Origin: Phytophthora sp. 'mugwort'
Lineage: Eukaryota > Oomycota > Peronosporomycetes > Peronosporales > Peronosporaceae
Assembly: GCA_033558025.1 (NCBI GenBank)
Contig: JAUCEF010000004.1
Coordinates: forward strand, 124,001 to 188,000
Direction: 5' to 3'
Length of the DNA: 64,000 bases
Part shown: positions 37,147 to 60,510 of the stretch, piece after piece
Position numbering within the stretch: position 1 is the first letter of the stretch
Layout: every line of letters begins with the position of its first letter
The notes under the pieces: model-generated
Told to the model about the DNA's origin: nothing
The model's database searches: none
The model's input: the letters and a program-made list of their open reading frames with translations, nothing else
Position numbers and translations under genes: made by a program

Positions 37147-38012
37147 GATTCACTGAAGGGGGGTCTAGACTGTGGTGCCAATGGTGCTGGCGTCTCGAGT
37201 TGCGAACTGACACTTGGAATAGACGTCAGGTGAAACGCTTGGACTATTTGGGCTTTTGTATGTATTGACAGAGAGCGGCCATGAATTTGAACTGGGTAAA
37301 ATGAATTTCGAAGTACAGTACCAAGTATTATACTTCGCCATTCAATTGGTAAAAGTTTTGCCACAAGAACGTTTTTTTGCTAATGTTTTGGAAGCTGAGA
37401 GGCGCCCCCCTCAGTGGTAAACTCGGAGGCGCGCTGGCGCTGCATGATATCCATTTATTCGCCGATGGGCTGTGTTTGTCGGTGATCCATTGCCCAGGTG
37501 CACCGCCCCCAATCGGACGGACGGACGTCAGGTGCGGCTGGCTCGTCGTGAAGGTGCATAACCCACCGCAATGGTTTTAGACGTCGGCGTGGTGTGTGGC
37601 ACGCAAACGCCACGGCATACGGAGATTTTGCTGCTGCTGGATGTCGGCACTGCCGCGCCCACACATCGAATTATGGTCCCTCTGTCCGCGCTTTCTATTA
37701 GCTCTTATGAACTGTTTTCTCGTTCGCGGGCTGCACGGCATGGAAGACGGCAACCGTCCATGGAGATTTTGTGGTGCGGTTGCTACCTTGGGCAATCTCG
37801 GTTCCTTGCTTGCTGGAGACCGCGCAATCTCCCTTATCATTGACGAATAACCGTGCACTTGCCTGGCGTCGGCGTATCTGGCAGATGTATTGCTAGTGGC
37901 AACACATCTGCGACAAGGTCTTAAACTAAACCGCGTAAAAACTATCGGATACTAGTTACTTGAGGAACAATCTGCATACCAACTGCCTACGTTACACTGA
38001 TACTAAGCGTAT
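37147..38012. other. intergenic between permeases 4 and 5
   Basis: Overlapping open frames under 95 codons on both strands and no recognisable domain. It contains a GGACGGACGGACG run near 37517, similar in style to the repeat at 4130. No gene supported. Confidence 0.45.
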
Positions 38013-40166
38013 TTAGCCTGTCACGACGCGCACACCCAGTGCTGAAACACGGTGGATCTTCTTGCTCGACGGCTGGCCCATGAACATCATGTTGGTTGGC
38101 ACATCCATCGACTTGGATAACCACTGCACCATGGCCGGATCAAATGCCCCAGTGACTGCGATGAAATCGATCTTGATCGACGGGTAAATGTGGTCGAACA
38201 GATTCACAACGTCCTCAAACTCGCGTGGAACAGGGGCGTCCGGCTCACATACGTGGACCAGTCGAAGGCAGTACGTGTGTTCGTTCTGCATCACGTACCG
38301 CACAGCTTCATTGATCTTGGGCAAGTTGGCGACCTTGCAGAAAAACACTACAGGCGTGTTTTTGACTGTCTCAATTGTTTTAGCAATTTTCACACTGCCA
38401 ATGAAGGGCTGACCACCTGCTGAAAGCTGCAGAATTGGAGGAATATCGCCTTGTCCGCCACGGAAGTGAAGCAGTAGCTTTCGGGAAATGTAGAGAAGCA
38501 CTTTGAGCAGACTAACGCGAGTCAGCATCAGGAAAACTACCAGGAAGAACACCGCGAAGTAGATGAAGAAGTATGACAATGCCTTGACATCGGAGAAGGC
38601 ATTGGCGAGGATGCCCAGTGCAACCATACCAAAGCAGCAGCTTGTGTTAGTCCAAGACGTTGTTTTTTCCCGAGGAATTTCTTCACGATACACCTTCAGC
38701 AACAGGCACGCGATGATGAAACACATCAACACGCACAAGAAAGCGAGTGCGAAAACTCCGGAGAGTACCGTCACTTCAGCGTCCAAAATAAACACCAGGC
38801 TCGCGGCCACAACGAAAAAGACCAGAATAATGTAGTGGTTTGTGCCACGGCACGAGTTCACCCGGAGCAAAAAGCTCGGTAAAACACGGTCGATAGCCAA
38901 ACGCTGGAAGAGACCGTTAATCCCCACGTAAGCTGTCAGAACAGCCCCAGCGAGCACACCGAAAGCATCAATTGCCACAAGGATTTCCAGCCAGCGACCA
39001 CCACTCAGTCGACCCATGTACGCCAGTAAAGTCGATTGGTTAGCAATGATCGTATCTAGCGGCACAGTCGCCAAAGCCATGAAGGAATACGCCACGTTAA
39101 ACGTACTGGAAAGGGCCCACATGTTGCGCAATGTCTTCGGGAACATGCCTGCAGCTTGCTCTTCCACGTACTGTGAAGATGTCTCAAAGCCTGTAACACT
39201 CAACATTGCTGTACCATAGCCCAGAAATAAAGCTGAGAAGACGTCGCTGTTTTCTAGAGCCTCACCAAAAATCGTCACTTCAGGAAGCGACGTGCCCATG
39301 TTGTCCACAAAGATGGACGGATGTTGCACAATGTAAATGATACTGAAAACGCCTAAAAGAAGGAGCGTGAACATGTGGAAGGAGAATAAGAGCAGTGCAA
39401 CGAACGCGCTCTCTGCGATCCCCATAAGGCACAACAGTGCAAACATGGCCAATAATCCAATCGAGCAAATCATTACAGGCAACTCCACCAGCGACTCGTT
39501 CACATAATTCATCGCCGATACGCCGTTCACCACTCCAGTCGCCAAATATGACATGACACTAAAGACAGCACAGATCGCAGCCACTTTTTTGGGGGCAGAG
39601 TTAAGCATAGCTGTATAAAAGCCTCCGTTTAACGGCACCGCACTCATCACCTCTTCAAACACCCACCGCAGATAATAGATCACGATTGCCACGAGTAATT
39701 GTGCCACTGGAGCGAGTTTTCCAGCCTTGGCGATGGTTTGTCCCGTGGAGAATAAGACACTGGACATGATGTCATTGCCACCAATGGATGTGGCCGTCCA
39801 CTCACCCAGTTTGTGTTCGCTTGCATGGTCTTTGAGCTCCTCGCGAATAGCTGAAATCTCGTCAGCTCGTCCTTGAACATATTGAGCCTCTCCGCCAATG
39901 TTCGGGTGCATCCAAGAAGGCTCCTTGAACCTCTGGTCCACGACTTGGATCTGGATGAAACGTTGGCGTAGCTGGCTGGGCGTATCGGCCCGGATAAAGT
40001 TCATTTCGCTCACCCAGCCAGCAGATTCCGTGTCAGTCGGTTGATGTATCGACAGGGGCGTGATCCCGCTCAGATGCACATAGGTGGTACCAGGCGAGCC
40101 CAGCGACAGAGGCGACCGCGGTGGCAACGAATCCAAACGTGAGCTTCGGTCGTCGGAGTAGGGCAT
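38013..40166 (-). CDS. APC-superfamily permease, second subfamily, paralogue 5
   Basis: 717 residues, single exon, tandem duplicate of the gene at 35026 in the same direction. Shared features are RFIQIQVVDQRFKEPSWMHP, the SIGGNDIMSSVLFSTGQ first helix, MSAVPLNGGFYTAMLNSAP and ITGFE-like VTGFETSSQYVEEQAAG in the middle. The N-terminus is longer and serine/proline-rich. The 3' tract 38092-38600 matches 35105-35613 at all but four positions, which points to gene conversion between the pair. The start is the first ATG, 40166. Confidence 0.87.
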   Translation of the reverse strand: MPYSDDRSSRLDSLPPRSPLSLGSPGTTYVHLSGITPLSIHQPTDTESAGWVSEMNFIRADTPSQLRQRFIQIQVVDQRFKEPSWMHPNIGGEAQYVQGRADEISAIREELKDHASEHKLGEWTATSIGGNDIMSSVLFSTGQTIAKAGKLAPVAQLLVAIVIYYLRWVFEEVMSAVPLNGGFYTAMLNSAPKKVAAICAVFSVMSYLATGVVNGVSAMNYVNESLVELPVMICSIGLLAMFALLCLMGIAESAFVALLLFSFHMFTLLLLGVFSIIYIVQHPSIFVDNMGTSLPEVTIFGEALENSDVFSALFLGYGTAMLSVTGFETSSQYVEEQAAGMFPKTLRNMWALSSTFNVAYSFMALATVPLDTIIANQSTLLAYMGRLSGGRWLEILVAIDAFGVLAGAVLTAYVGINGLFQRLAIDRVLPSFLLRVNSCRGTNHYIILVFFVVAASLVFILDAEVTVLSGVFALAFLCVLMCFIIACLLLKVYREEIPREKTTSWTNTSCCFGMVALGILANAFSDVKALSYFFIYFAVFFLVVFLMLTRVSLLKVLLYISRKLLLHFRGGQGDIPPILQLSAGGQPFIGSVKIAKTIETVKNTPVVFFCKVANLPKINEAVRYVMQNEHTYCLRLVHVCEPDAPVPREFEDVVNLFDHIYPSIKIDFIAVTGAFDPAMVQWLSKSMDVPTNMMFMGQPSSKKIHRVSALGVRVVTG

Positions 40167-40368
40167 GACTGGTAGCGACGTACGTATGAGCCTGGGACGG
40201 CAACTTCTTAACTGACGGGAGGACTCACATGTGTTCTAACCGTTGAACTATTTGAGGCTTCTTGTCCCATTTTCAAACTGGCGGGGTACGTTTTGCAGCC
40301 AATCGAGTTACATTGACAATTACCGTATACAAGGTATACAATATAGCAATGAAACATGCATGTTTTCA

Positions 40369-41901
40369 TTAGAAAAGAAGAGGAGGCATGTCTTCATTCT
40401 CTTCTATCTCTCCTTCAGGGCCAGCGGGGTAGCTAGCTACCGTTTTTGTCACAAGCGGCGTCATTTGCAGTCGCCCTTCGAAAGCGTTGTTATCGTCATC
40501 GTTATCTCTTTTAACCAGTCCACGAATTTTCACTGTACGCCGTTTACCAGGTGAAACGTTGTTTGCGGCTTCCAGTAACTAAGGATGCATTCGAAAAAAT
40601 GAGTCTATCACCCTCGAACTGCAATATAATAGGCAAAGTCGTACCTCGTCGAAGAGTTTCGTGCTCTGCGTCATGGTCCTTGTAGTCGAAGTTGATTTCT
40701 TCTTCGCGTTCTTGTCCTTCAGCTTTCTCTCCTGCTCTTCGCGGTACAGCTGAGCGCGAAGTTGTTGTGTGGGAGTAACATGAGCTTTCGGTAGAGTCAA
40801 GCGTAAAGTGCCAGTGATTTTCGACCGCTCGGCTTTTCCCGCGTCCGAGTGCACGAGCTCAGGAAATTTAAGCCGAAGAACCTTGTTCTTGGCCACAATG
40901 GAAACGTACGACGGGTGGACGTCAATATCTACGAGCGACGTGTCAAGGAACCGTGGCAAATCCACTTCCACAATGACGTCGATTATCTCGTCCGTCAGTC
41001 GGAACTCCCATTTTCCTTCGTTACACTGCCGAACGGATCCATCTGCCCGCTCTTCCAGCTCTCGAGCCTTTCGCCGCGTCTGCTCGTGTTCCGCCTCTGT
41101 ATTTCTCTCCTTCGGCTGGTTCTCGCGCCGTCGAGCTTCTTCTTCTTCCTTCTGCTCTGCCATTTCCAAGTACATCTCGCGACGGGTGTGTGGGGTATAC
41201 GGCACCTTCTTCGTCGATGCCATCACAGCCTTTTTCTTCTTTCCAGCCTTTTCCCTCTGCTCCTCCGAGATGTCGGTCGCTTCACCGCCTACAACTTCAA
41301 TCACTGCTTCATTTTCTGTCACAGCCTGTTGCTCTCGCTCCAACGCCTTCTTGGAGAGCACCATCGTGGCTTCTCTGCGGACATATTTCTGCCTCTCTTG
41401 GAACACCTGCAAGGCCTTAATCCGGTCGCTGCGTTGAATCTCTTTGCCGTCTAGTATCTCAAGTTGAGGCAGTGAAGCGATGACGTATTCCCTGAACCCA
41501 GTCTCCCAGTTGGACTGGCACGGATTACCGAGCATGTAGAGCTCTCGGAGATGCTGCAGAGGCCTCAGATGATTAACGCTCTCTTCCAGCGTGTCGAAGT
41601 CCACAAAGTTCACGGTGAGGTCCAATTTGTTGAGAAACTCGCAGCTCTGCAGGCCCTCGATCTTGCCGATATTATTCAGAGCTAAGTTGAGGTACCGCAG
41701 CTCCTTCATGTGCGTCAGGCCCTCCATCTTGTCGATGATATTGTTTTGCAGGTAAAGGATGCGCAGCTTGCGGCACAAAGTGCCGATCACCTCGATCTTC
41801 TCTAGCTCCTCTTGGTGCAGAGAGATCTCTTCAAGAGTCGAGATGATGCCTTCATTGTGCTCCGCTCGCTTGCGAAGTAGCTCCACCGTGATACGAGGCA
41901 T
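40369..41901 (-). CDS. DNAAF11: DNAAF11/LRRC6 (tilB)-like dynein arm assembly factor
   Basis: Exons 41901-40645 and 40578-40369 on the minus strand, intron 66 bases (phase 0), 488 residues. The N-terminus (ITVELLRKRAEHNEGIISTL) is diagnostic of LRRC6/tilB. Leucine-rich repeats (about 20-130) and an LRR cap with LPQLEILDGKEIQRSDRIKA follow. A charged coiled coil (about 165-290) leads into a CS/p23-like domain (about 295-385). Without the second exon the reading frame runs into unrelated residues; with it the protein ends in the family's acidic PPL motif (EDMPPLLF). The protein helps pre-assemble axonemal dynein arms in the cytoplasm, so the organism makes motile flagella, in keeping with oomycete zoospores. 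Confidence 0.9.
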
Positions 41902-42880
41902 GGCGGATGGCAGATGGCCTGCAGAATCGGAAATGAATGAACATGTATCTTTGGCTGCGTCTTTTCACTATATTGATGTGGCGAACACTACAGAACTGAT
42001 GAAAAAAAGAAATCAAGCTTCACTCCGCGACAGATTATTATCCACCCATTTCGGTGGTTGTAACTCAGTGAATTTGTACATGTATTGCTACCATTGCACG
42101 GCGTTATTCACAAAGTCGACACTCAAATTAAAAAAATGCGCAGTCAACTTCAAATGCACTCTCCACGATCATATTCTAATTAATATTCTTTAAAATAGGA
42201 TATTTGTGATTGCGAAAGGGCGGAAAGCTTTCGGCGAGGGTGCTGCGCTCGCTCAGCCATCGCCATCACTTCTCATCTTTCACACAGTTTTTTTTTAAGC
42301 AAGCAGTTACTAGTAATATACGCCTTATTGTACAGGTGCGCGGTTGCATCCTGCGCGTCGACAATGTGACGGGGCACACAACACCTTGCGCACTGGAAGT
42401 GTAACTTTTTGAGTACAAGTCCCCGTCCTGGGGGACAGTTACCAAATTAGGTAGATATAAGAGCAACTGGACCGGTAGTGAAAAGGAGCAAAAGTTTACG
42501 CTCGTTTTCATTAATGACACATTGGAGACTTTATCGGTGTAGTGATAGGATTTAAAAAGTAATGATGAGGTAACTCATCAAACGCGGTAGATGTCCTACG
42601 CGGAAGACGAAGTGAATACACCCTCTATATTCACAAAATAAAGTCAGCAGACGTTCCGTAGGGAATAGCACTTTTGAAAACGACTGGAGGGGTCGTTTTG
42701 CCTGAATAAAAGCGGCGCGTCTCCCACCCCTCTCTAAACCGTAGCTATATCTTCCTCTCAAATTTTTGAAACTCCCGGCTGCGCTCTCCGTGGTCGGTGA
42801 CCACATAGCTGCGAGTGCTGATAGCCATGAACTAACTAACTAACTACATCGTCGTTATTGTCACTGTTGTGAACTCGCCA
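41902..42880. other. intergenic, upstream of DNAAF11
   Basis: About 1 kb with no supported gene; mostly AT-rich DNA and a short GGGGACAGTTACC stretch. A tandem ACTAACTAACTA run lies near 42832-42846, next to the Harbinger element. Confidence 0.5.
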
Positions 42881-46869: not shown

Positions 46870-47571
46870 CTTCGGTAATGTCGTCTGAAGCGGCACCATG
46901 GTGAGCAGGGTCTGGCAGCCCCGCAGCTCCGCACGCAGAAGCGAGACCAGCCCTTGGAGCCGAGACTGCGTCTCCACCGCCTGAGAGAGCCCAGGTCCAG
47001 AAGCCCAGGCCCCTTGTGAGACCACGGAAGGGGCTCCATACGAAGGAACCCCGGCTGCATACGACGCGTATGAGCCATATCGGTAAGGCTCGGAGTACGC
47101 AGGAATCGCTCCTGCCTGAGGCACAGGCCACAGGAGGTCCCGAAGGAGTTGCATCTGCCTCTAGAAATAGTGCACGGACATCCAAAGGACATCCAGACGT
47201 CGGAAGGCCTCGTCCACGTCAGTGGTCCGACGGTCGACCCGACCTTCAAGGGCCGACAAGTCGCTTGTCAGACGGCTCAAGTCGTCATGGACCGGACCAA
47301 GGATCCGCGGAGTTCCCAGCCTGGGCGGCTGTACGCCATCACTCACTCCAAGCGCTATCGCCAGCCCAAGGACTCGACGAGGGAGAGCGAAGTCCTCAGC
47401 TGCTCGAGGTGGAGCCGAAGGCGGCACACCTGACCCGGAACCGGACCGTATGGGCGGTGACTCGTACTCATATCCATACTCGTACGGGCGCTCCACCGCC
47501 TCTCCTCGACCGTAATGGAGATACCCACTACCATGTGGACCGTGTGCTCCAGGGCTCCAGGAGCGGCGCAT
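46870..47571 (-). pseudogene. gypsy gag-like block in opposite direction
   Basis: The minus strand has two consecutive open blocks in one frame divided by a single TAG: a tyrosine/serine/proline-rich part with coiled-coil residues (LTSDLSALEGRVDRRTTDVD, 47571-47161), then SEPYRYGSYASYAAGVPSYG and ETQSRLQGLVSLLRAELRGC (47154 to about 46870). Its coding look is on the strand opposite to 45941-46860, so an internal inversion or two elements is implied. Assignment to gag is inference. Confidence 0.35.
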
Positions 47572-47768
47572 TCACGGGAAGCGCCGGCTCCGCGTGTAGT
47601 GGAAGGGGTACTCAGAGGCTGAGAGCTCGTGGGAGCCGATTGAACTGCTCCCAGGCTGACAGCTCGACGGCTGTCGCAATCTGGGAACAGAACCGGCGAC
47701 GGCTTCGTAATTAGCTCAGGCTTTCTTGCCCGAACGGGTGTGGTCGCGGAACTATGACCATACCCGCG

Positions 47769-47797
47769 CGGTATTAGATACTGCGTACCTAATACCG
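47769..47797. repeat. perfect 9-base inverted repeat
   Basis: CGGTATTAG (47769-47777) and CTAATACCG (47789-47797) flank an 11-base loop. It sits between gypsy and MULE debris and may be part of a terminal repeat. Confidence 0.6.
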
Positions 47798-47974
47798 ATC
47801 TAAACTGATCGAAAAGCTCTAATGTGAATTACCCATTTTACATTTTAATGAATCTGACCTAAAAATAGTTTTAAATAGCACCCGATATTTTATCATTGAA
47901 TACGTAGTTCAAGTCGCTTTAGTATAAATTCTCAGCCTTTTAAACAGTTACACGTTTAGAATCCTTGCGTCGTT

Positions 47975-48950
47975 CGTCATTCTGCAATGGAGCACAACGG
48001 CTACAATTTCTAATGCCAGATCAAGGAGGAGGATACCAACACTGCGTACTGGATCGGCACTCGCCGCCGAGGTGGCTGCAAGGCTCGGCTGATCGTGTGG
48101 GACGGGGAGATCCGAGGCCGCAACAACCACACCTGCGATGTGGAGGCGCCGCCAGAAGCCATCGACGGCGTCGGGAAATCCGAGCCACCCTTCAGGCAGC
48201 CTGCCTGTCCAACCTGTATGTTCTTCCCGACATGGTGTATGAGCAAGTCATGGCTAGTATGCGGAAAGCCTACCCTGGAGCTACTCTCAGCACCGTCGGC
48301 AGGCAGCCTGGAATCTCCGTCATTAAGTACACTAGAGCGCAAGGCACAGGACACGATACCCTTCGCGCCTTCGAGAGCGCCCCGCTGGGCTATGTGGCTC
48401 AAAATGACGTTCGGCCGTTTCTCCAGTTCAATATGGTCAACACCATTGGGTGTAACAATGATATCTTGGGTTTGGTCATCCTGACCGCATTTGCTTGCTG
48501 CGCTATTCAGGCACCGCCTTCTTCATTGACGGGACGTTCAAAATGGTGCCAAGCCTTTTTCACAAGTGCCTCGTCGTGATGGTATGCGACATTGGGTAGA
48601 CCTTTACGTTCCGTGTGTGTACATGCTCATGGGCCCCAAACCGCAAGAGCGTACTGGAATGTGCTTAACTACCATGTCATTCAGACAGGTCGATTACTGG
48701 AGCCATCATCCGTGACGGGTGACTTCGATCGTGCTCTCATGAACGCAATTACCGATCAATTTTCCTCGTCAAGTTTGTCGGGTGTCTATTCCATTGGAAA
48801 CATGAATAAGCGCAAAATGGTTTCCCTGCGAATCCCCGTAGAACATATGAAGCGGTGCTTCAACTTGTCTCTCCCTACAGAACTTACCATGGCTAGTGGT
48901 AGGTTCCTAGTAGGACAATTCCCCCACATTAAACAGTTTAAGTCTCCGGA
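47975..48950 (+). pseudogene. MULE-type transposase with FLYWCH-like N-terminus, broken
   Basis: The first block (about 48040-48160) has the YW..CKARL.. and N-H-x-C pattern of a FLYWCH-type finger. Next come VLPDMVYEQVMASMRKAYPG and VAQNDVRPFLQFNM (48210-48440), FFIDGTFKMVPS (about 48510) with the first catalytic aspartate, and LEPSSVTGDFDRALMNAITD (about 48698-48757) with the second aspartate. These are standard MULE domain landmarks in oomycetes. Stops and frame changes between blocks make it a relic. Confidence 0.65.
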
Positions 48951-48977
48951 TCTATTCTTGTATAAGTATTCCTTCTG

Positions 48978-49530
48978 TTTGTCCTATGTCTCTGCCATGG
49001 CATCAAGGGCACGGCTGATTACGGAATTCAGCCTGGAGTGTATATAAGACTCCACTTGTTTCCGCACGGAAGTAGTCTCAATCCGAGCATCTCCCCTAGT
49101 TAGAGCCGAAGGCGGGTTGCTCCCTCGAAAAGTAAGCGGCACCCGTGGATGGCGTAATCTATTCAGGTAGAACGGGGTATACCCGGTCGATGCGTGAACC
49201 ACACTGTTGAGTGCGAACTCAACTACTGACAGCCGTTCTGACTATGTGCGAGGAGACTCCGAGCAGATACTGCGAAGAGTGCCTTCAAGCACTCAGTTGA
49301 CACGCTCCGCCTGCCCGCCCGTTTAAGAATGATCGGCAGTGAACATGTGCAGCCTCGTTCCAAGTAGTTGGAACAGCGTTCGCCAAAACGCAGCTCTAAA
49401 CCGCGGGTCACAATCCCAGACAATCGTCTCCGGCAGACCATGATGGCCGAACAGCTTCACAGCCTGTTTCCCGGTCACTGTCCCTTTGACGGAGCCAGAG
49501 GAACCATCTTGCTCAGACGGCACACGAACA
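48978..49530 (-). pseudogene. gypsy integrase fragment
   Basis: On the minus strand, LPETIVWDCDPRFRAAFWRT and LGTRLHMFTADHS (about 49430-49323) are followed by GGQAERVN-like residues. After a frame change comes VHASTGYTPFYLNRLRHPRV (about 49199-49140). This is the core and C-terminal linker of Ty3/gypsy integrase; WDCDPRF covers the second catalytic Asp. It is isolated, truncated at both ends and inactive. Confidence 0.8.
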
Positions 49531-49840
49531 ACAAGATGCTTATGTTTCAGTGGCCGTCCGCAGGAAGGCCAAAAATGAAGTCCAGAAGTAGTGGTTTACA
49601 GTACACAATCGGGGCTGTTTGTTATAATTCCATCTGGATGTACTAAAACAATGTTTAACCCATGAATTAGCAAACGGATAACACCCTATATAATTTAGGC
49701 AGCCCCTGTCGATAGCCAATATGGAAAGAGACATAGTTTTTGTTCTCAAAAGGTCCTGATAACGGAATATGTAAAGGTGCATAATTTAGTGAATATAAGA
49801 TACAATATGTTGCCCATATGAAGTTATCCAAAGATATAAA
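49531..49840. other. AT-rich spacer at the left edge of the viral remnant
   Basis: Base composition shifts from about 50 percent GC to AT-rich near 49600. No gene is visible; this is probably the left non-coding end of the viral insertion. Confidence 0.45.
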
Positions 49841-50246
49841 ATATAATGAAAGGATTCATATATATAAGATTTCGAAAAAAGACGATTCTATCGTCTTCAT
49901 GGGGAGCTCAACCAAACCACAACAGCAATACTGAAATGATGTTAGAGGTAATTACACCGCATAGTTAAGAACTGGCAAGTCGTTTCGTACAATTTATGAA
50001 CATTTTAAAAACGGTGGGGTCGATAGTTTTGATATAAATTTGATTAGCGAGCATGAGATCACAAAAAGTATCGATATCTATGAGCATAAGCAAGTGGCTA
50101 TAAAAAATACCAAATGCATAAACAACTGCGAGCATTCATTTCGAATTGGGGATGAGAAGCTCAATAACCTCCCAGAAAAGAAAACCCGAGAGAAGAAAAG
50201 ATTCAATGTGAATGCGGCTCGATATATAGTCGATACAATAAGGTAA
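49841..50246 (+). pseudogene. GIY-YIG nuclease-like gene 1, broken
   Basis: An N-terminal piece with IYKISKKDDSIVFMGSSTKP (about 49860-49920) matches the GIY..YIG core as seen in gene 2; the second motif reads FMGS instead of YIGS. After a frame change comes FINLISEHEITK-like residues (DINLISEHEITKSIDIYEHK, about 50029-50085), then KCIN and a basic C-terminus open from 50040 to 50246. Such nucleases are common passengers of PLVs and giant viruses. It is broken by at least two frameshifts. Confidence 0.55.
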
Positions 50247-50441
50247 GCATTTAATGACAAAGAAGCACCAAAATTATTTAACTCGACGTGATTAAACTAA
50301 CAATTCTGAATTTCATGATAATTTATGAATTTCAGAAATATAAACCTTTATGAATTTCACAGGATTCCTCTGAATTTCATAATTATATTATTTTTTCTAA
50401 AAATATTAAGAGCCTATATATAGATAGACCGAACTGATAAC

Positions 50442-50710
50442 ATGTCGAGCGAAGTAACTTTTGGAAAATTCAAGGGCACCAAAATCGAAGAAGTATATAC
50501 TTCTGATCCTGGTTATTATCGATGGATATTCAACCAACCCAGTCTAAATATTAGTGAGGAAATCAAGATATTCCTCCACTCGAAGTTTCTTAACGATGAC
50601 AACTCATATATGCTGACTTGGGGCAAATATCGCGGTAAGTCCCTCAAGCAGATTAGTCGAAGGGATTCGACTATATCGATTGGCTTCGTAAGAGTCAATT
50701 TGTTATTTAG
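50442..50710 (+). pseudogene. protein with two ExoX-like C-terminal modules
   Basis: ATG 50442 follows a TATA-like CTATATATAG (50414-50423). The first module reads TFGKFKGTKIEEVYTSDPGY with RWIFNQ; the second reads TWGKYRGKSLKQISRRDS. Both fit the small GKYKG..DP.Y..W module often fused to exonucleases and present alone in large DNA viruses. A one-base shift near 50660 diverts the frame before the expected DWLRKSQF end at about 50710. The role is unknown; nucleic-acid binding is a guess. Confidence 0.5.
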
Positions 50711-50762
50711 AAGTGTCCTAACCTACTTCAAGAATTGAACTAAGCTATTGAGTTTTTTTTTC

Positions 50763-52508
50763 CTAAGCGGTGGTAAAATCGATTACTTCCCCTGTAAGAC
50801 GATCATAGCCTAGCTCCTGCTCGCTCACCACAAGGACAAACGTATTGGTGCCCTGGCATCCAGCATTCGTGCCCTGGACCTGAATCGCCTGCGGAACATC
50901 ACGCTCCGTTAGGCGGCTAACGTCAGCAATGAGAATGCGGTTAGTCAGCGACCATGCCTGGTAATCAAGAAGACCATTTACGAGTCAGGAGTCAGATCAC
51001 CGCTAATTGAAGCGATTTTCGCAATCTCGTTTGTGAAGTGAAGAAAATCATAGTCATGACTGATGTCGAAGGTTTGGTGGGAGCCAATGCGAGCATTGAA
51101 GTTGCGGATACTCGAACCAGGGTGAAGCGTCCAGGGAGCCGAATCAAAACGACTTTGAAACTCCTGTACAGCAGCAGAAGCGAAATTACCAGTCTGCTCG
51201 GCGAAAAGGAGGAGAATGACAAATTGAGCATTCTTAACAGAAGCTGTTAACTGTAGATCGAAAGCAGCATTGTTTTGAGTCGATTACATTCCTATACCAG
51301 CTCGCTGATAAAACCATTGTGCGTAGCAATCATTGTATCGAACTTTCTTCATTGGCTTTTGAGATGATCGCTTGAGGGTTCTCAATATGTACAAATGGAA
51401 CGTATAAACGAGAAGTGGTGAAAGGCATATACGTACCATCAATTGAAGGTTCAAGGGCATTGACGCAGCACCCCAAGAAATACTGAACCCGGCAGAAGCA
51501 GCAAGGACACCAGCCATGGGATTACCTGTCGATGATGCAGAAACCATCACCGGACAGGTATTGCCACTTGCGAGAGTGGTGCTGGTAAGAGACATACGCT
51601 TCGATGCGTCGACAGCAATAGTGGCAGTACCTTGGTTGACACAGAAGCGTAGGCGGATCTGAGGGTTCGGTATGAGGTCTAACTCCTTGAAAATAGGATG
51701 CAGATCATTTAGCTTGACCTTGAGCATGTAGTTCCACGTTCCCATGATCGCTTTAGCAGTAGCAGCACCAGCTACCAAGGCACCACGCGCCAATTGATTT
51801 GAGATTGTAGTAGAAGTTGCAGCCGCACCAAGTGAAGGCCACGACGTGGAGAAATCAGATCCAGCGTTAGGAGGGTTCGACAACAGATGCTTTACAACAC
51901 CATCATTAACGATAAAAGCACCACCAGATGGGTCAGTAGTAGCAAACGAAGATGAGAAGGCAGTAGTATTAGTGTAACCATCTCCCGTAGTAGATGATGT
52001 AGCAGAACTCTACAAAGTTGACTGAGCGGCATCCGGATAACGGAACGACTCAGCTCCATGCTTCTCAACAAATCCTAGACTGTAGCTTGTCTGAACTCGG
52101 ATATTGTTCCAAAACAGCTTGTAGTCAGCCATACTCACAACAGTTTTCCCGTTGAGTTCAAGCGACATGCTATCGATTACATTCCAGTTACCGAATATGA
52201 GAGTAGAACAGAAGCGGTTAGCTGGTAGAGTCTGGGCATACTACCGTTCTTCATTGAGACCTTGTACGGTAGCACGATGTAGGTATCGCGAAGACAAGCG
52301 AATCCTTCACTCCCATTCAGCCGGGCAGGAGCATCAATAGTAATTACACCATTCTGATACGATCCTTGATTGAGCTCGATTACGAAGGGTACTCGCTTAC
52401 CGGAAGATACCTTGATCTCCGGGTCGCTCTTGAGCGAGCTCTGGTACAAATATTGGTCGTATAGTTGAGTTTCGCCCATCGCTGAATCTATATGGATTAC
52501 TTCCATCA
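50763..52508 (-). pseudogene. PLV major capsid protein (double jelly roll), broken
   Basis: From ATG 52508 on the minus strand the blocks read, in order, QLYDQYLYQSSLKSDPEIKV, LNGSEGFACLRDTYIVLPYK (52509-52240), then in a second frame MSLELNGKTVVSMADYKLFW (about 52165-52106). The long block 51883-51440 includes MLKVKLNDLHPIFKELDLIP and PQIRLRFCVNQGTATIAVDA. A C-terminal region with NARIGSHQTFDISHDYDF follows (about 51110-51040) and the stop is at 50763-50765. Length of about 580 codons and the KLNDLHPIFKEL block are what I know from PLV capsids. At least four frameshifts or stops occur. The protein would form the pseudohexameric capsomers. Confidence 0.75.
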
Positions 52509-52520
52509 AAATTAAATATT

Positions 52521-52899
52521 ATGGCTCATTCCATTAAGCTAATCACAAGCGATCATGATCTTATTGAACTTGCGGATCGATTAGAAGTCCGTCTGGATAA
52601 TATTCGAATCGAGTGAAATATCGAAACCGATCCGAAAGGAAGGTACGTACTTGGTCTTATTGAGGCCTCCTAACCTTGATGTAGGACACTGGTAAGCGGT
52701 ACACGATGGCGAATTTTTCGACTCGATGGGCAAAGCAGCTCCGACAAAGTATGGAATCGGTAGATACAACCCTGAACAATATCAAGGAGCAAACGGTAAT
52801 TATTGTGGTATATGGTGCATGCTTTGGGTATACTGCAAACAAAAAAATAAAATGCATTTATTAGATCGATTCGAAGACCTAAATTTAATCATTCTTTAA
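52521..52899 (+). pseudogene. adenovirus-type cysteine maturation protease, broken
   Basis: ATG 52521 lies only 12 bases from the divergent capsid start. After a frameshift near 52610 the frame reads LLRPPNLDVGHW, where the histidine is the expected catalytic residue; an in-frame TAA follows immediately. Then come AVHDGEFFDSMGKAAPTKYG, an EQYQG segment with the oxyanion glutamine, and NYCGIWCMLW with the catalytic cysteine. His, Asp, Gln and Cys order and spacing match the Polinton/adenovirus protease family (C5/Ulp1-like). At about 125 codons it is short for the family. It would cleave capsid precursors. Confidence 0.7.
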
Positions 52900-52921
52900 A
52901 TAAAATCAGTCATGAAATATA

Positions 52922-53674
52922 ATGATGGCGTTCAGAGAGTTACCAGTTTTATCGTCAATCCCAGAGGCAAAGCTTAAGAGGGCATTTAAATCTAGTACCC
53001 TTTCATTGACTAAGGATAAGTTGCGTGGTTCTGGTGCTACGCTCCATCTTCATCCTGAATCGTATGCTAAAGCTCTTCGAGCTCACAAATCAGGTAAAGG
53101 AACGCGTTTGGCAATACGAATAAAGAGATTGGATATCCTTTCAAGCATATGAAAGTATGCATGGAGCCAGTATTTGGTCTAAGATATGGAGTGGTATTAA
53201 AAAGGCATTCAATGTTGCTAATGACTCTGGCATTCTTAGTGGAGCAGCAGATGCTGCTGTTCCCGCTCTCGCAACTGCACTCGGTGCTCCCCAGGGCGCT
53301 ATTCCAGCGAGAGCTGCTATCCGTTCCATGATGGGTATCGGAGTTGCTTATGACGATAAGGAAGGAGGACGTCTGACCATAAGTGATATTAAGAAGGAGC
53401 CAAACGTGCTCTTGCTTATACTAAACGAAAAGGAGTTCTAACCGATGCGGTCGATGCTGGAGAGAAGTTTTTTCCTTTTCACAGCCACCAAGCCTGAACA
53501 TGAGGAATTAATCAAATCGATTCGAGGTGAGGTTCGTCGTCTATGGAGTTGGTGTTGCCAAGCCAAAAAAAGTCAAAGAGATTCATAAAGGGTTCCCAAG
53601 AAGCACGCGATCATATGGCTAAGCTCCGTGCAATGAAGAAGAAGCCTATGCAAGCGGGGAGCTTTACATTTTAA
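52922..53674 (+). pseudogene. small virion protein (pVI/pX-like candidate), broken
   Basis: The N-terminal block from 52922 has LSLTKDKLRGSGATLHLHPE. A second frame (53157-53441) begins with GASIWSKIWSGIKKAFNVA, an amphipathic helix, followed by an Ala/Pro-rich stretch (SGAADAAVPALATALGAPQG). A basic C-terminal tail (about 53480-53670) contains KSIRGEVRR. Adenovirus-like minor virion proteins with amphipathic helices are common next to the protease in PLVs; equivalence here is inference. The stop at 53672-53674 overlaps the converging minor capsid gene by 11 bases. Confidence 0.5.
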
Positions 53675-54613
53675 CTTCCGCCTCATTACGCTCAAAAACG
53701 ACACAAGCAATGACTTTATTTTTTTGGTTAAAGCAAAAGCATGATCGAGACCGAAGTATCTCGAAACTTAACCTTCCGATCAGTCAGTCTGGTTGTAAAT
53801 GGAGATCGTAATCCTCGTACGAGCACCGTTGTGACAGTTCATCCAGGAATATTGACTCGGTTTGCAACTAAATAGCTGTCCAACCGATGCATCACCTCGA
53901 TCGAATGCACTCAATATCGCCACTCGCAACGTATTCACTCTTAATTAGATCGCATGGTACGATGTATGAACACGTAGGGTGGGTCTGAGGGATCGTGTTC
54001 GAAAGCTGAGCGCTTGCAACCGTTGCATGGGACGATGGATATGTTCCAACAGTAAATCCAACAACCTTTCAAAACTCAGCACTATCGATGATCAGGCGCG
54101 GAACGCGCGTAGTAGTAGGCAAACCAGCACCGCCGGAGCTATATAGACCAGTAGTAGGTCTCGTCCAGGTACCTTCAACGGTAGGTAGAGTCGTTGGGGT
54201 AGCGCTGAAAAATCAAACTGAGCAGCCTAATATACGCTATTTTCCGATAATTGGATGTAAAGACATTATTTCCAGATACATCAATGAGATAGGCACCAGC
54301 ATCAACGAGAGCAGTCTGGATGCTTTGATTGATATTGGCATACATGTAAATACCATCCGAGAGATTGATACTCGCAATGGATGTTGTAGCACCCGTCGGT
54401 ACTTCGATTTCAAAAGTGTTGTTCCAGAAAGGGGTCGCATCGATATTGTATTCGGAATTGTACATGCTGACCGATTGAACGACGCAAACAACATCGCGAA
54501 AATCGGCAGCAGAACCCGGGAAACTGTATCGCCAAGTTGGGTTGTACCCATCTTGAACGAGGTTCGTGGAATCGAGCTTGATAAAACTCGCACACACTGT
54601 AAGCAATATTCAT
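53664..54613 (-). pseudogene. PLV minor capsid (penton-like) protein, broken
   Basis: The longest block (54606-54175) reads KLDSTNLVQDGYNPTWRYSF and later NTFEIEVPTGATTSIASINL, a jelly-roll-like strand pattern. A second frame (about 54175-53940) has TGLYSSGGAGLPTTTRVP, then KVVGFTVGTYPSS, the GF..GTYP motif I know from PLV and virophage minor capsids, and IVPCDLIKSEYVASGD. A stop is at 53664-53666. It would form the pentameric vertices. At least three frame changes occur. Confidence 0.7.
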
Positions 54614-54668
54614 CAGATCATATTTTTTAAGCGATAAGCGCTAATAAATATAGTAACTTTATATAGGT

Positions 54669-55203
54669 ATGATTGGATGTGTATATAAGATTGTCAATGC
54701 AGATGAGACCATCGTGTAAATTGGCTCGACTACACAGTATCTTTCCACTCGTTGATCTGAACATAAAAATAAATATAAACGCTGGATCGATGAACGAGTA
54801 GGTTGCTCAATTTACCAATACTTCGAATCCCACGGTATTGGAAACTTTCAAATTGAAAAGATCGGTGAGCATGAAATCACTAACCGGCGACAGTTGTGTG
54901 AGTTTGAGCAATCTATTAGTAATTGATAGAACCCAATGCACGGTTAATTTCCAAAGGGCGTATCAGACAGAAGATCAGTTTCAAGAACAAAAGCGTGCCC
55001 ACAACCGACTCCAATATGAGAATAACAGAGAGCAGCGCATTGAGTTTCAGAAGCGGTACTACAATGATAATAAAGAAGCTATCAAACAAAGAATGTCGAA
55101 GAGACTGGAATGTGAATGTGGTCGCAATGTCAGGTGGATTGAGAGAAATAAGCATTACGCAACGCGGAAGCATCGACGCTGGCTTACCGATCAACAAGTT
55201 TAA
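54669..55203 (+). pseudogene. GIY-YIG nuclease gene 2, broken
   Basis: ATG 54669 starts MIGCVYKIVNADETIV, followed by a TAA in place of the tyrosine of YIGS, then IGSTTQYLSTR (the YIG half), a QYFESHGIGNFQIEKIGEHE block (about 54817-54876) and CEFEQSI. After a frame change a basic helix-rich tail (REQRIEFQKRYYNDNKEAIK) and a C-x-C..H segment (ECECGRNVRWIERNKHYATR) end at 55203. The layout (nuclease domain plus zinc-like tail) is typical of algal virus and PLV GIY-YIG proteins. The stop codon overlaps the ATPase stop on the other strand. Confidence 0.7.
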
Positions 55204-55877
55204 ACATCAGCTGGATTGATTACTTCATTAAAGTTATATCGTAGTTGACTTTTCACGCTGTCTACAAGTAAGATTTGACCTCTGCCTCGTGATATTGCTT
55301 CATTATAGGCAATCATTTTTGTTTTGTCGTCTATGCCATTTATATTGAAATCATTAGCAAGTCCCTTTTACTATTTACTCGTAGAGTAGCAACAATTTCA
55401 CTGTTCAATCGTATCATCTTATCAGTTGCAAAATAGCTGTGGCTCAAGAATATGGTACTCAACTTGAAGTGTCTTCCACGAGTATAATAGTGGAAAAAGA
55501 TATTCTTCTGGAGTAGCTTATCGTTACTGTATTCGTCTATGATAACAAGCTCAGATATATTGGAACTTAATGGTGTACGACGCACTTATTCAACGCTCCG
55601 AGGCGTATCTGGATCAGCGAAAGTAATGAAATCTTCAAGCTTGTCGCAAGGTACTCATACAGTTCTTGGTGGGGATTGCGAGCAATAATCGTTAAATGGG
55701 CGAATACGTGGGGTGCATGTTTGAGAGTGAAAAAGCATAGGTTGTTTTTCCCACCGAAAGAGGGTCCAAGGACAATCATTCTAAATAGCTTTTTAATGTC
55801 AAGCGCAGTGATATCGCCCATACAGTTGTCTTGTACTTCTTACCCAATGAAGCAGCGAAATCTGGAATAGTGCTCAT
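55200..55877 (-). pseudogene. A32-like (FtsK/HerA) DNA-packaging ATPase, broken
   Basis: From ATG 55877 the minus strand gives a short start, shifts frame, then reads FRMIVLGPSFGGKNNLCF (about 55785-55735), the Walker A region, with N in place of the usual T/S after GGK. ELVIIDEYSNDKLL (about 55550-55510) is Walker B, followed by FFHYYTRGRHFKLSTIFLSH (about 55495-55440), the A32-family sensor region, and SEIVATLRVNSKRDL. Another frame carries the end (AYNEAISRGRGQILLVDSVK) to a stop at 55200-55202. It would pump DNA into capsids. Divergent to the fibre gene. Confidence 0.72.
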
Positions 55878-55899
55878 GGTCGTGTCTTTTAATCGCTGG

Positions 55900-55911
55900 A
55901 TCTATATAGAT
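55900..55911. promoter_or_regulatory. palindromic TATA-like box between two divergent viral genes
   Basis: ATCTATATAGAT is a perfect 12-base palindrome halfway between the ATPase start (55877, minus) and the fibre-like start (55928, plus). Related TATATAG motifs precede the genes at 50442 and 54669. It may be a viral bidirectional promoter. Confidence 0.5.
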
Positions 55912-55927
55912 TGAGATAAAAACAAAC

Positions 55928-56911
55928 ATGAGTTCTGGTTTCTCATATCCTCAGCCAATATTCATATCACCGATCTACAATCCTGCATTCTATCTAACGT
56001 TGGATGCCAGCGGCTATCTGACCTATGAGTATGCCCAGACGCTTTACCTCGATAAATATGATTATCCACTAACATATATTTCTGGTATCACCCCAGGGGT
56101 TGCAACACAAGGTGTAGCCCTTGTTCCAGGTACTAACAGTGATATCAATGGTATTGGGACACTACCTTGTGTAAGCTTGATAATGGATGGATCCATCGTG
56201 TCGTCTGCTCCTGCATATACTCTCGACATCACCCCAGGTACTGCCACTCCGGGTAAGGCACTTGTGCTGGATGGATCTGGATCTATCGGAACAATTACTT
56301 CGCTGGCAGCTACTTCGCTGACCGGTACGCTCGAGACGGCGGCTCAGCTTACTATCACATCGCTTGGATCATTATCTGCTTTGACTATTGTAGGCAATCT
56401 ATCGTTTAGTGGCGCTTCAATGACTTTGACCGGTCTATCAATGCTCAGTTCTACGTCAATAACAGGCACCCTAGCCACTCCCTCCCAGCCAAATATAACT
56501 GTCATTGGCACATTGAGCTCGCTCACCATCAGTAGCAGTTTAACACTAGGTACGACAGTAATCAGCGAGGCAGAAATAGTGGTCCTTGATAGAGTAACCA
56601 AAGGCTCTGCGGGAGCCAATAAAGCTCTTGTCTTAAATGCCAGCAGTAATATTACTGGTATTAATGCACTGTCTGCATCATCTCTTAGGGGTACCCTTCA
56701 AACAGCGACTCAATCCAACATCACAAGCGTCGGCACTCTATCCGGATTATCAATCGGTGGCTCTCTAACAATATCCGGTTCATCACGAGTACTCTCTATT
56801 ACTGGAGCATCCTCGTATATCAATTCGTTATCGCACAGACTCAGTGGAGTAACTATCGATCTGAGCGTGTTGAACGGGGACTATGGCGTTATCACGTCAA
56901 CAAAGCTCTGA
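55928..56911 (+). CDS. fibre-like repetitive virion protein, probably 3'-truncated
   Basis: 327 residues, uninterrupted. The N-terminus is hydrophobic/aromatic (FSYPQPIFISPIYNPAFY). The rest is Ser/Thr/Gly/Leu-rich with a repeating unit of the type LTGTL.TA.Q..ITSLG.LS.LTI (about residues 125-150, 175-200 and 252-280). Such repeats form beta-helical or triple-stranded fibres in viral and phage attachment proteins (family knowledge). Fibre proteins usually end in a knob or tail domain; none is seen here, and the frame stops about 15 bases before homology to a pogo transposase begins, so the 3' part was probably lost on insertion or deletion. It is the only open gene in the viral block. Confidence 0.55.
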   Translation: MSSGFSYPQPIFISPIYNPAFYLTLDASGYLTYEYAQTLYLDKYDYPLTYISGITPGVATQGVALVPGTNSDINGIGTLPCVSLIMDGSIVSSAPAYTLDITPGTATPGKALVLDGSGSIGTITSLAATSLTGTLETAAQLTITSLGSLSALTIVGNLSFSGASMTLTGLSMLSSTSITGTLATPSQPNITVIGTLSSLTISSSLTLGTTVISEAEIVVLDRVTKGSAGANKALVLNASSNITGINALSASSLRGTLQTATQSNITSVGTLSGLSIGGSLTISGSSRVLSITGASSYINSLSHRLSGVTIDLSVLNGDYGVITSTKL

Positions 56912-56924
56912 TCTCAGATTCATT

Positions 56925-57573
56925 TAATGTGATCCGCGTTCCACTTGGTGTTAGAGGCTGCTACGTTTCCTTTCAACCTCGCGCATGGGTCGATCACGAA
57001 ATGCTACTTCAGTGGCTTGAATGGCACTACCCCACTGTGACGCAAGCCGATGGACAATGGGTTGTCTGGAATTCGATGCGCGCGCACCTCGCCAAACCAG
57101 TGAAGCAAGGCTGCGCTGACAAGACTATTAAAATGGCTGTCATCCCTGGTGGGCTCTTGCGCTACTTGCAGGCAGGCAACGTCGGGATCCTCAAGTCTTT
57201 CAAGAACCAAATGTCAGTTTTAATCGATTTGAACACGCCCTCATCAAGTGGCGTACATCCGCGGTGGAAATCCCCCCCCCCTTCTATCGAAACGGTTGTA
57301 TCCTGGGTAACGACAGCGTGCCAGGTTCCTGAAAATGTGGTGATGAAGAGCATCGGTAGGTGTGGTTTTTACGATGATCCTAACGAATGGTTTATCAGCA
57401 GACACGACGTCTACGGAGCTAAGTTTCACAATGCCTGGTCGGAATCTGCTGTGGACGAACAAGGTACTGGTAGCAACGGTAGTGACGACGGCCCTGCTGA
57501 CGAACTGCTTGATGCCTTTGACGAAATGTGGGTCGAAGAATATGTCTCGGAGTCTGAGCTACATCTAGCATAA
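56925..57573 (+). pseudogene. pogo-type (DDE_1) transposase, N-terminally truncated
   Basis: The open frame starts at once within the catalytic domain: VPLGVRGCYVSFQPRAWVDH, then QWVVWNSMRAHLAKPVKQGC, MAVIPGGLLRYLQAGNVGIL and SFKNQMSVLIDL, and the C-terminal SIGRCGFYDDPNEWFISRHD. In active relatives the third block reads WDSMRAH; here the second catalytic aspartate is asparagine. The CENP-B-like DNA-binding half and the first catalytic region are missing. It follows the fibre-like gene with no spacer of note. Confidence 0.78.
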
Positions 57574-57841
57574 ACATTCTAATCCATCTTGCTGATGTTG
57601 AATGTCAATCGCCGTCATGTGGTTTTCAGTGGTCGGTCCAGACTCCTCGTTTCGCAAGAAATAGAGTACCATCCTACACAGTACGCTCGGTGGCGTCGTA
57701 GGGAACTCTATAACAATAGATGAGTAGACGACGGCGTACTAATACGTATTCTACGTTAGGTAAGCAATTAACAAGATAGTATTATTGCTGAGATTTAACC
57801 TTGAGCAGGTAGCGGAATCTTAGTAACTTGGCGTCGAATAT

Positions 57842-58150
57842 CTAGAGTCTCAAACAGATACCTCTCACAAACGCCAACACAAGCGCTCCGCAGCTCTTGT
57901 CATCTTGCGGAAAATACCAGCTGACATCTCTGCGCCAGCGCTTCTTTGGGAGTATGGGCAAGAAAACACTTTTGAAGACACCATCAACTAATTCGATCGT
58001 ATCCTTGTCGTTTCGCGGATTCATGCCAGTGTACACGTACGTAATAGGCTAATACGGAGACCGCACCAATGGTTTATATCCATCCACAGAGCTCCAACAA
58101 TCTTGGCGGCGCCGGTTTCGACATTTTTGTGCTTTTGAGCCATTCTAACT
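57842..58150 (-). pseudogene. C48 (Ulp1-like) cysteine protease C-terminal fragment
   Basis: The minus strand reads GALWMDINHWCGLRIS (about 58110-58060), with the NHW histidine. After a frame change it continues YTGMNPRNDKDTIELVDGVF and YFPQDDKSCGALVLAFVRG (58036-57860), with glutamine and catalytic cysteine. Such domains are frequent in oomycete MULE and related elements. It is too short to be a gene. Confidence 0.5.
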
Positions 58151-58990
58151 TTTCATCGCACTTCCAATTGTCATCAACTGAGTAGCGAACGTGTTTGCAC
58201 TCCGCGCGTGCGGTCGCCTGTTTGCATCAGCGCAGATGATAGGCATTGCTGCTGTCATTGCAAATCTTCTGCCAGTTCGTGAGCCAGACTGAGCAGCGAC
58301 CGCTCTTCGTCGTCCTTCAGGTTAATATTGGCTAGACAAGTGCAAACAGGGTTCCGTCGCCGAACAGAGACCCCAGATGTGATTCCTCCGCATCAACTCC
58401 ATTAATCCACTCGATACGTTTTTGAATCATTCTGAATGTATTTCTGATTCCGTGCCATCCTCCCGTGGTGTATATGTAGCTACCCGTTATTTTGGGGTAA
58501 ATGGTCGAGTGACCCTGATGGAATTTCAGCAAAATCTCATTGTCTCGCAGTTCTGCGTGCTGCTGTTCTCTAGATAACAAAATCAGTTAATTGGGCACAA
58601 TATGTTCGAAGGTTTTTTTTATATCATACTATAAAAATTGCTGTAGATTCAGCAATTGAGCAGAGATTGAGATAATCCACAATTAACGGCTGTCGCTGCA
58701 TTTTTTTGCTGACCTGCGTATTTCATTGGATACCTACCATAGCAAGACCGATCGATGAAAAATACAGATGCTGCATTTCCATCGCGCCACCCAAAGTCGC
58801 CATGGGACCTGTAGCTCAGTGTGCGACAGACCACCCCTTGAATCAGTTTGTTTGGGGTGAATTGAGGGGAGTGGCGCTGCAAAGTGTCGCTCTAAGAGGG
58901 CTGTCACCTACCTGCGATGGTCCATATCTGACCAACGGGAATAATGCTCCGTCCACACCACAGCTAACGGAAAAGCTCGATAGAGAAGAT
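58151..58990. other. unassigned decayed DNA
   Basis: A minus open block (58580-58332) contains residues such as HSTIYPKITGSYIYTTGGWH and may belong to the same element as the C48 fragment. The remainder has no recognisable content. Confidence 0.35.
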
Positions 58991-58999
58991 GGTGGTTCA

Positions 59000-60510
59000 A
59001 TTCCTCCTACTGGCGACTTTCGCGATCTGAAAACAATTTCATTTGTTTACTATTACGGCTTATATATGCAGCGATTTCTGACGAAGAGAAGACGACTCTC
59101 GCAACCAAGAAGTTGGCTGCTACGAAGCTAGTACGGCGAGAAATGGAGGAGTCGAGATGCTTGCGATGACTGGGATTGCTGCGCTTGAGCAAATTTCAGG
59201 GTTGATCCGGTTGGTCCGACGACGACGGTACGTAGCTTAGTTGCGCGCATGCCTGTCCTTTGCTTGTTCGCCGCGTCATATGTACTTTTTCAGCGTCATC
59301 TTGTAGAAATCGGCATCCTGAGCGAAGACGTGCATTAGTGACGTGTGTAGCTCGTCAATGCGCAAGTAATATTCGCGATCATGCCGCCGAACTTGTCGTG
59401 ACTCCAACGAAATGTCTCTGACCCGCTCGCCCACAGCTTGCTCAAGCGACCGAAGTACATCTAGACAACGATGCGGTCAGAAGAAACGCGCCGGCTACGC
59501 TGAGTTTCATCGTTGGTAAGCCCGCCATTTCGAAGTTTGCGCTTGGGTTGGATCGTTCCGATTATTTGTCCAGACCCTTGGTATCCCATGTCTACCAGGA
59601 CTGTCTAGCTTCGGCAAAATTCTTCGTGGTCTTCTCCGTTGTCTTCGATTCCGAGTTCTCCAGCGACGGCATTCTTGGCTCATGTTCGTGTGAAGCTCTT
59701 TCCGCTCCATGAAGATGGTGTTATGGTGCGTGGCGCCCGGATAGTGCGATGACAGCGAGACACATATTCCAGGAAGTGCAACAGGCGCTTCAAGCTTTAG
59801 TCCGTGAAGGTGGTGCTTACCTGAATAATACGTTTTTGCCTCCGCGAATCTTCTACTCGGACGGTGAGTTTCTTGAATTTCACGTTTGTAGTGTAGCGTG
59901 CGTAGCATTGTTGAGGCTTTGACACTACGTTGTCATTGAGATCGGCTGGATGAAGTGATCCATGAGTGGCTTTTCGATCAGTTCGAGCACCTTCATCGTC
60001 ATTTTCTCGAACGTGGATGTTTTCCTCCCGAAAACTTTGGCATGCATGTCCCACTGAGAGTACCGCTTCAGGACATTCAACGTCATGAAGAAGGCATCGC
60101 ACGCGGTGCATTTAAATCTTGGACCCCCCCCAACATCCAGTACGATGAGATTGCCGGCTAGGCCAGAGCATATAATGTCTCGTACTCAGGGTGGGATTAG
60201 TTGGTCATGTTGCAAATTCTCTCCGATCCTTGATCAACGAGGAAACGGCCGTGGATCGGGCTGTCAGAGTCGATTTTGTCTTCGAACAGGTGGAAGTACT
60301 CGTATTCGCCGTTTCTTGCAACCTCTCGTCACGGTGCAGCATGGAGTCTTCCATCTGGGCCAGGGCCACGGCGGTGTTGATCATCTGGGGGTCGCTTCTG
60401 TCGGCGTTAGCGAAGAACTTGGGTATGCTGTTCTGTTGGCTTGTGAATTCAGAAGTGAAGCGCGCTTTCGGGATTTTGACGGGAATTGTGCTGTAGACAA
60501 ATCAAATGCC
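59000..60510 (-). pseudogene. decayed coding region of unknown family
   Basis: Coding-like minus-strand pieces lie in several frames: RKRASLLNSQANRTAYPSSS or, in the next frame, NADRSDPQMINTAVALAQME (about 60410-60350), a cysteine pair FKCTACDAFF (about 60110), and REYYLRIDELHTSLMHVFAQ (about 59375-59310). The style (short Cys-pair finger, charged helices) suggests a transposon-borne or oomycete-specific nuclear protein, but I do not recognise a family. Confidence 0.3.

Follow-up and report, generated by a model that had tools for sequence, protein, structure and literature searches.

A truncated fossil, very probably of a Polinton-type virus, in the genome of Phytophthora sp. 'mugwort'

What is the compact run of virus-like genes in the right part of a 64,000-nucleotide stretch from the oomycete Phytophthora sp. 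'mugwort', and how did it come to its present state? The stretch, called the window below, covers positions 124,001 to 188,000 of contig JAUCEF010000004.1 (assembly GCA_033558025.1). An original prediction, made by a model from the letters alone, had taken the block at 49,841-56,911 for the fossil of an endogenous virus of the Polinton/Polinton-like virus (PLV) group in an oomycete. Our analysis agrees with it in the gene set, in the sister copies of the same genome and in the host, as a host gene of the window (40,582-41,964) has its best named matches in Phytophthora species, with 79-86% identity, and lower ones in other oomycetes (best 120 of 1,476 matches). We consider it very probable that a capsid-coding virus family of the Polinton type integrated into this genome, and that the window copy was inserted, decayed, lost its right half and became fused to a DDE_1 transposon. 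The features discussed first are these:

49,587-56,951, + strand: whole retained virus fragment, left end intact and right end lost (seven left-end and 11 right-end loci, junction probe)
49,586-49,849, + strand: left terminal inverted repeat of about 250 bp (40 genome matches; found inverted at the right end of each of the six copies examined)
50,766-52,479, - strand: major capsid protein (MCP) pseudogene (tblastn with the open 585-amino-acid frames of sister loci L014 and L015; fold of a close database relative)
55,218-55,788, - strand: packaging ATPase (A32-like) pseudogene (tblastn; relative passing Pox_A32; phrog_2666)
55,928-56,951, + strand: fibre-like gene of which only the N-terminal part is kept (frame open to 56,908; PHROG matches; relatives with Peptidase_S74)
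56,952-57,758, + strand: fragment of a DDE_1 transposon, truncated at its 5' end and joined to the virus (DDE_1, E 4.3e-10)

The extent of the block is set by where sister copies start and stop matching it. The genome of 86.3 Mb in 154 contigs was searched with a left and a right marker, which gave 27 and 38 matches respectively, the window itself included, across many large contigs; sister loci were fetched for seven of the 26 non-self left-marker matches and 11 of the 37 non-self right-marker matches (L-numbers denote fetched loci and C-numbers contigs of the same genome). Six of the seven left-end loci start matching at 49,586 or 49,587 and the seventh at 49,830, with flanks that differ among them, and all 11 right-end loci stop matching, nine at 56,951 and two at 56,946. 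The presence of the block is thus confirmed, far beyond chance, at 49,587-56,951 (7,365 bp), with both predicted ends moved by this comparison. Its guanine plus cytosine (GC) content is 42.4%, versus 50.6% in the remaining window, and the lowest value among 169 same-size segments outside it is 46.7%. The description as an AT-rich block in a GC-rich host region therefore holds, with a contrast that is modest.

Beyond 56,951 the fetched sister copies continue with a common sequence, and the window copy does not. Two of them, on C5 (L034) and C1 (L035), extend past the fibre gene and remain aligned as far as the fetched sequence reaches; the similarity of a third, on C10 (L033), to both is limited to roughly the initial 3.3 kb of its stretch. 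Comparing these three stretches with the window by blastn, we found no right virus half elsewhere in the window; the right partner of the terminal repeat was not found in the window either, nor an integrase or a polymerase in the window copy. A probe across the junction divides cleanly: its match to the sister viruses ends at base 47-52, in one case at base 60, and its match to DDE_1 copies starts at base 52 in two of them and at base 58 in a third. The DDE_1 copies L040 and L041 align with each other for about 800 bp past the junction. As virus and DDE_1 are both broken, the fusion points to a deletion or rearrangement, not to a clean insertion, and what the window retains is the left portion of a longer element cut off at 56,951. 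Two other candidates were rejected. Against a DDE_1 element inserted into an otherwise whole virus stand the 800-bp alignment of L040 and L041 and the lack of a right half in the blastn comparison with L033-L035. The shared end points had at first suggested a mini-virus of 7.3 kb that is complete and bounded on both sides, but all 11 fetched right-end loci continue past 56,951.

The right halves of the relatives carry genes of their own. In L034 the Peptidase_S74 end of the fibre and a chromodomain are above cut-off, with no match for its rve piece; L035 has a family-B polymerase match just under cut-off; and in L057, from near 4.2 Mb of C5, there is a 371-amino-acid integrase of the rve-chromodomain type, with rve (E 6.3e-10) above and Chromo below cut-off. 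The family-B polymerase profile PF03175 is above cut-off at 11 of its 12 genome matches, at two of these only together with their neighbours. Judged by gene content, the relatives are Polintons, because they carry both an RVE integrase and a family-B polymerase. A probe of the left end gives 40 genome matches (62 candidates, 40 scored), from which six facing pairs were examined, spanning 17.7 kb on C8, 18.4 kb on C1 and about 16 kb on C4, with short ones of 7.3, 6.3 and 3.6 kb. The inverted repeats measure 231-450 bp in the five non-palindromic copies, where the 450 bp of C1 is a lower bound reaching the end of the fetched stretch, and in the palindromic copy the alignment runs over 478 bp, flank included.

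The three short loci were also noted in their own right. The palindromic one, of 6.3 kb (C14: 2,797,980-2,804,311; L051, L052), has the same repeat at both ends, and its flanks are also mutually inverted. The other two are short virus derivatives with both repeats kept, one of 3.6 kb (C12: 222,116-225,745) with an exact candidate target duplication and one of 7.3 kb (C14: 2,533,572-2,540,918) with five of six bases agreeing; these could be internally deleted copies that were moved in trans.

For the capsid, the window gene is spread over three frames and interrupted by two or more in-frame stops when compared by tblastn with the 585-amino-acid frames of L014 and L015, and its pieces are 77-88% identical to them in the two main frames. 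Among the best 120 of the 199 database relatives of L015, those named by organism are all from Phytophthora except one from Plasmopara halstedii, the others are mostly unnamed metagenome proteins, and a few are labelled 'Major capsid protein', 'Capsid protein' or 'Virion structural protein' at source. A relative 97% identical to L015 (P0001) was modelled from 33 aligned sequences (pLDDT 70.6, pTM 0.71). Compared with the PDB, this model matches the Sputnik MCP first (E 1.8e-13) and also the mavirus MCP (1.4e-11), Sputnik and mavirus filling the top four places, with PBCV-1, iridovirus and PRD1 capsids among the later matches; its first match in BFVD is the MCP of Qinghai Lake virophage. A double-jelly-roll major capsid protein is predicted here through the model of this close relative, and the capsid named in the original prediction is upheld by the open frames of L014 and L015 and by the virophage/NCLDV-type fold.

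The packaging ATPase of the window is likewise broken, in three frames with one in-frame stop, and its pieces are 48-80% identical to the relative in L036 by tblastn. That intact relative matches Pox_A32 with 33.8 bits (cut-off 22.8, E 3.2e-8), and a piece of the window gene itself matches the terminase family phrog_2666 (E 9.6e-5), so that the earlier naming is confirmed through the relative, as an A32/FtsK-like packaging ATPase. The fibre frame is open for 327 amino acids (about 980 bp), with its S74 chaperone end lost; it has PHROG matches, two of them named tail fibre. Its relative in L036, of 686 amino acids, carries the Peptidase_S74 chaperone domain above the Pfam cut-off, and so does L034, which confirms the fibre-like gene proposed before.

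The family is abundant in the genome. The following match counts are lower bounds, and one locus can yield several pieces. There are at least 159 matches for the MCP (353 candidates, 150 scored), at least 155 for the ATPase, at least 154 for a penton-like gene and at least 27 for a GIY-YIG gene. At least eight MCP loci among the matches listed have an open frame of 575 amino acids or more, and their matched part is free of stops; four lie on C12 in duplicated segments and are hence not independent. The MCP matches on C12 are spaced by 26,420, 26,415 and 26,420 bp, with other spacings there of 25-29 kb. At about 2.34-2.51 Mb of this contig (L037, L038) a segment of about 26.4 kb is repeated in tandem, with 99.93% identity over the 6 kb compared; it carries virus pieces beside other open reading frames (ORFs) that by eye resemble transposon genes. 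Head-to-tail virus concatemers are disfavoured there, as in the two 6-kb stretches compared, which are one period apart, a short virus piece is followed by such ORFs; a repeated host segment carrying virus pieces, that is a recent segmental duplication, or an assembly effect is more likely.

The history of selection was estimated by the ratio of nonsynonymous to synonymous substitutions per site (dN/dS), from pairwise Nei-Gojobori counts in which some dS are near or above 1, so that the contrast and not the exact value is meaningful. Between the window MCP and ten loci of other subfamilies dN/dS is 0.05-0.20 over two segments, and among those ten loci 42 of 45 pairs have 0.07-0.29 (about 240 codons, stop codons skipped), the three near-identical pairs (dS up to 0.022) giving 0.77-4.55. 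Within its own subfamily, the window MCP has 0.50-0.56 versus L019. The fibre gene of the window has 0.70-1.01 versus six sister copies (dS 0.06-0.09), and 0.12 versus the more distant L036 (dS 1.4). These patterns suggest that selection maintained the capsid genes on the deep branches, at the time when the family was spreading, and that they drift freely once chromosomal. The window copy decayed after such past spread at a near-neutral rate, and its reading as a fossil agrees with its genes: MCP, ATPase, minor-capsid-like, small-virion-like and ExoX-like genes each match in at least two frames by tblastn, with stops in MCP and ATPase, and the fibre is open but truncated. A bolder thought, to which we give some chance while leaning against it, is that the genome still houses a population of Polinton viruses that formed virions until very recently, with several subfamilies whose capsid, ATPase and penton-like genes have open frames and are under strong purifying selection, beside the dying subfamily of the window; if true, one genome would record live and extinct viral lineages together.

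The remaining virus genes of the block are the following:

49,785-50,243, + strand: remains of decayed ORFs that probably correspond to the left GIY-YIG nuclease named in the original prediction (weak; motif by eye)
50,424-50,735, + strand: gene with an ExoX-like C-terminal domain, two domain stretches, frameshifted near its end (PF20600, E 8e-14; tblastn in two frames)
52,522-52,896, + strand: probable adenovirus-type cysteine protease remnant (kept in place in L036, 69.9% amino-acid identity by tblastx)
52,925-53,452, + strand: small virion protein-like pseudogene in three frames (tblastn with L036 911-1462, 70-85%)
53,719-54,609, - strand: probable minor capsid (penton-like) pseudogene (tblastn and tblastx with L036; at least 154 genome matches)
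54,662-55,200, + strand: decayed GIY-YIG nuclease gene (colinear with the PF01541 match C8:2224635, adjoining the ATPase)

The ExoX-like gene had not been mentioned before. Among the GIY-YIG nucleases that had been, the right one is supported by its position in the C8 relative, where the PF01541 match (28.3 bits) lies beside the ATPase, and the left one has no profile support, its related ORF (L002:1403-1828) having no Pfam match. For the minor capsid, protease and small virion protein, place and sequence are conserved in relatives, and no library profile names them: the protease-like remnant and the relative of the small virion protein have no match in the libraries scanned, the penton-like gene has no meaningful PDB or PHROG match, and profile A2, built from eight of its relatives, gives only meaningless PDB matches. 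The minor-capsid and protease names are probable ones drawn from position and motif, the protease being so named by a cysteine motif.

From the anatomy, truncation, copy number and selection pattern observed, together with the predicted capsid fold of a close relative, we infer the following course. The element would integrate by means of the RVE integrase that it encodes, and its family-B polymerase would presumably copy it. The insert would probably be flanked by 6-bp duplications and bounded by terminal repeats of about 230-450 bp. The module of MCP, penton, protease and ATPase would package it into an icosahedral particle, and an S74-matured fibre may serve attachment and entry. The window copy would have been inserted and then have decayed near-neutrally, and a rearrangement would have removed its right half, with the fibre end, integrase, polymerase and right repeat, and joined the remainder to a broken DDE_1 element. 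Several observations weigh against a virus of this kind. Profile search, the check proposed with the original prediction, is passed at Pfam by ATPase and fibre through their relatives, and minor capsid and protease have no such support, though their ORFs are conserved at the expected places. MCP profile A1 gives only meaningless matches to PDB sequences, with no capsid and, at E up to 1, no virophage (Maveriviricetes) chain among them, and a scan of IMG/VR with it gives 14 pattern matches, none confirmed, hence no free relative. The confidence of the P0001 model is moderate (pLDDT 70.6), with listed TM-scores up to 0.51. The polymerase profile matches only 12 places, far below the capsid genes, which may reflect loss in most copies or a weak profile. 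Finally, the 6-bp flanks agree exactly in only one of the six pairs, in five of six bases in three, in four in one and in two in the palindromic locus, at ends set by a motif picked from the repeat alignment; this agreement may fit a 6-bp target duplication partly blurred by later mutation.

Some of these facts could also be told of a transposon spreading only inside cells, with its capsid genes as idle baggage: the integrase has a chromodomain, terminal repeats and high copy number are present, and capsid genes are broken in many copies. The low dN/dS of the MCP, both between the window and ten loci and in 42 of 45 pairs, speaks instead for capsids needed during spread, which leaves idle baggage an unlikely account. 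That the block is a piece of a giant-virus (NCLDV) insertion is very improbable; the same capsid fold and an A32-like ATPase are found there, while the elements here are of 16-18 kb bounded by terminal repeats and their best structural matches are virophage capsids. The abrupt change in composition might be taken for contamination or a false assembly join, which the original prediction had named as what would overturn it; with dozens of marker matches, on megabase-size contigs and in different flanks, we regard this as extremely improbable. Nor does the open fibre frame, about 980 bp long among broken MCP, ATPase and other tested genes, make it probable to any real degree that the host tamed this copy and kept the fibre for its use, for the frame is truncated, is one of about 38 matches, and its dN/dS versus the six sister copies lends such keeping no support. 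The preferred account thus stays with an integrated Polinton-type virus family and a dead, truncated copy of it in the window.

Among known systems, Mavirus and Sputnik are alike in the capsid fold, as predicted for the MCP relative, and also in their kinds of morphogenesis genes; they are unlike in sequence, as the MCP here has no sequence match to a virophage chain of the PDB at E up to 1, and the fold alignments have 10-13% identity. In oomycetes the kind of lineage is already described in print. Fifteen oomycete elements have MCPs of the Gossevirus group, four of them with RVE and pPolB, some have terminal repeats and 5-7-bp duplications, and the missing capsid of the P. infestans Polinton was identified as of Gossevirus type (Bellas and Sommaruga 2021, PMC7805220). 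A survey of 245 oomycete genomes gave up to 299 MCP copies in one, the oomycete MCPs being 'restricted to' the Gossevirus (GKS1) group or, elsewhere in the same paper, 'almost always' in it (Bellas et al. 2023, PMC10120064). GKS1 is also split into two subclades of ochrophyte and oomycete MCPs, PLVs are reported in Phytophthora quercina and P. betacei, and GIY-YIG genes are widespread (PMC12220804). Since the published oomycete MCPs are confined to that group, the capsid of the present relatives is probably of Gossevirus type. The oomycete Gossevirus Polintons/PLVs resemble the present family in host group, high MCP copy number, an MCP accompanied by RVE and pPolB, and terminal repeats; unlike them, the window copy is a truncated fossil. 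For the P. infestans Polinton, the listed P. infestans proteins are 66-80% identical to the MCP of L015, from a different species. Cryptophyte PLVs, which have other hosts, share some capsids in the GKS1 clade, stand-alone GIY-YIG genes and phage-like fibre proteins (PMC12220804).

Such insertions are common in oomycetes and the one in the window is ordinary, a new and degraded member by which the known invasion of oomycete genomes gains one more fossil with clear limits. It serves mainly as an example, since comparison with the sister copies gives its ends, the half that it lacks and the history of selection. In the literature available to our search, no naming of this locus and no selection test of oomycete PLV capsids was found, and the available text of PMC10120064 contains neither 'purifying' nor 'selection'; capsid selection during the spread of a family bears on whether protist Polintons are viruses or plain transposons.

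Around the block, an Rfam scan of 47,000-60,000 at gathering thresholds gives no match. Left of the insertion, a short ORF (49,326-49,595) looks by eye like a piece of a retroelement integrase, with no Pfam support. Farther left are five long open stretches of 707-773 amino acids (9,235-11,391; 15,301-17,502; 18,597-20,915; 35,029-37,149; 38,016-40,235), which by eye have motifs in common (for example ATSISGN, where printed) and resemble a local host paralogue family.

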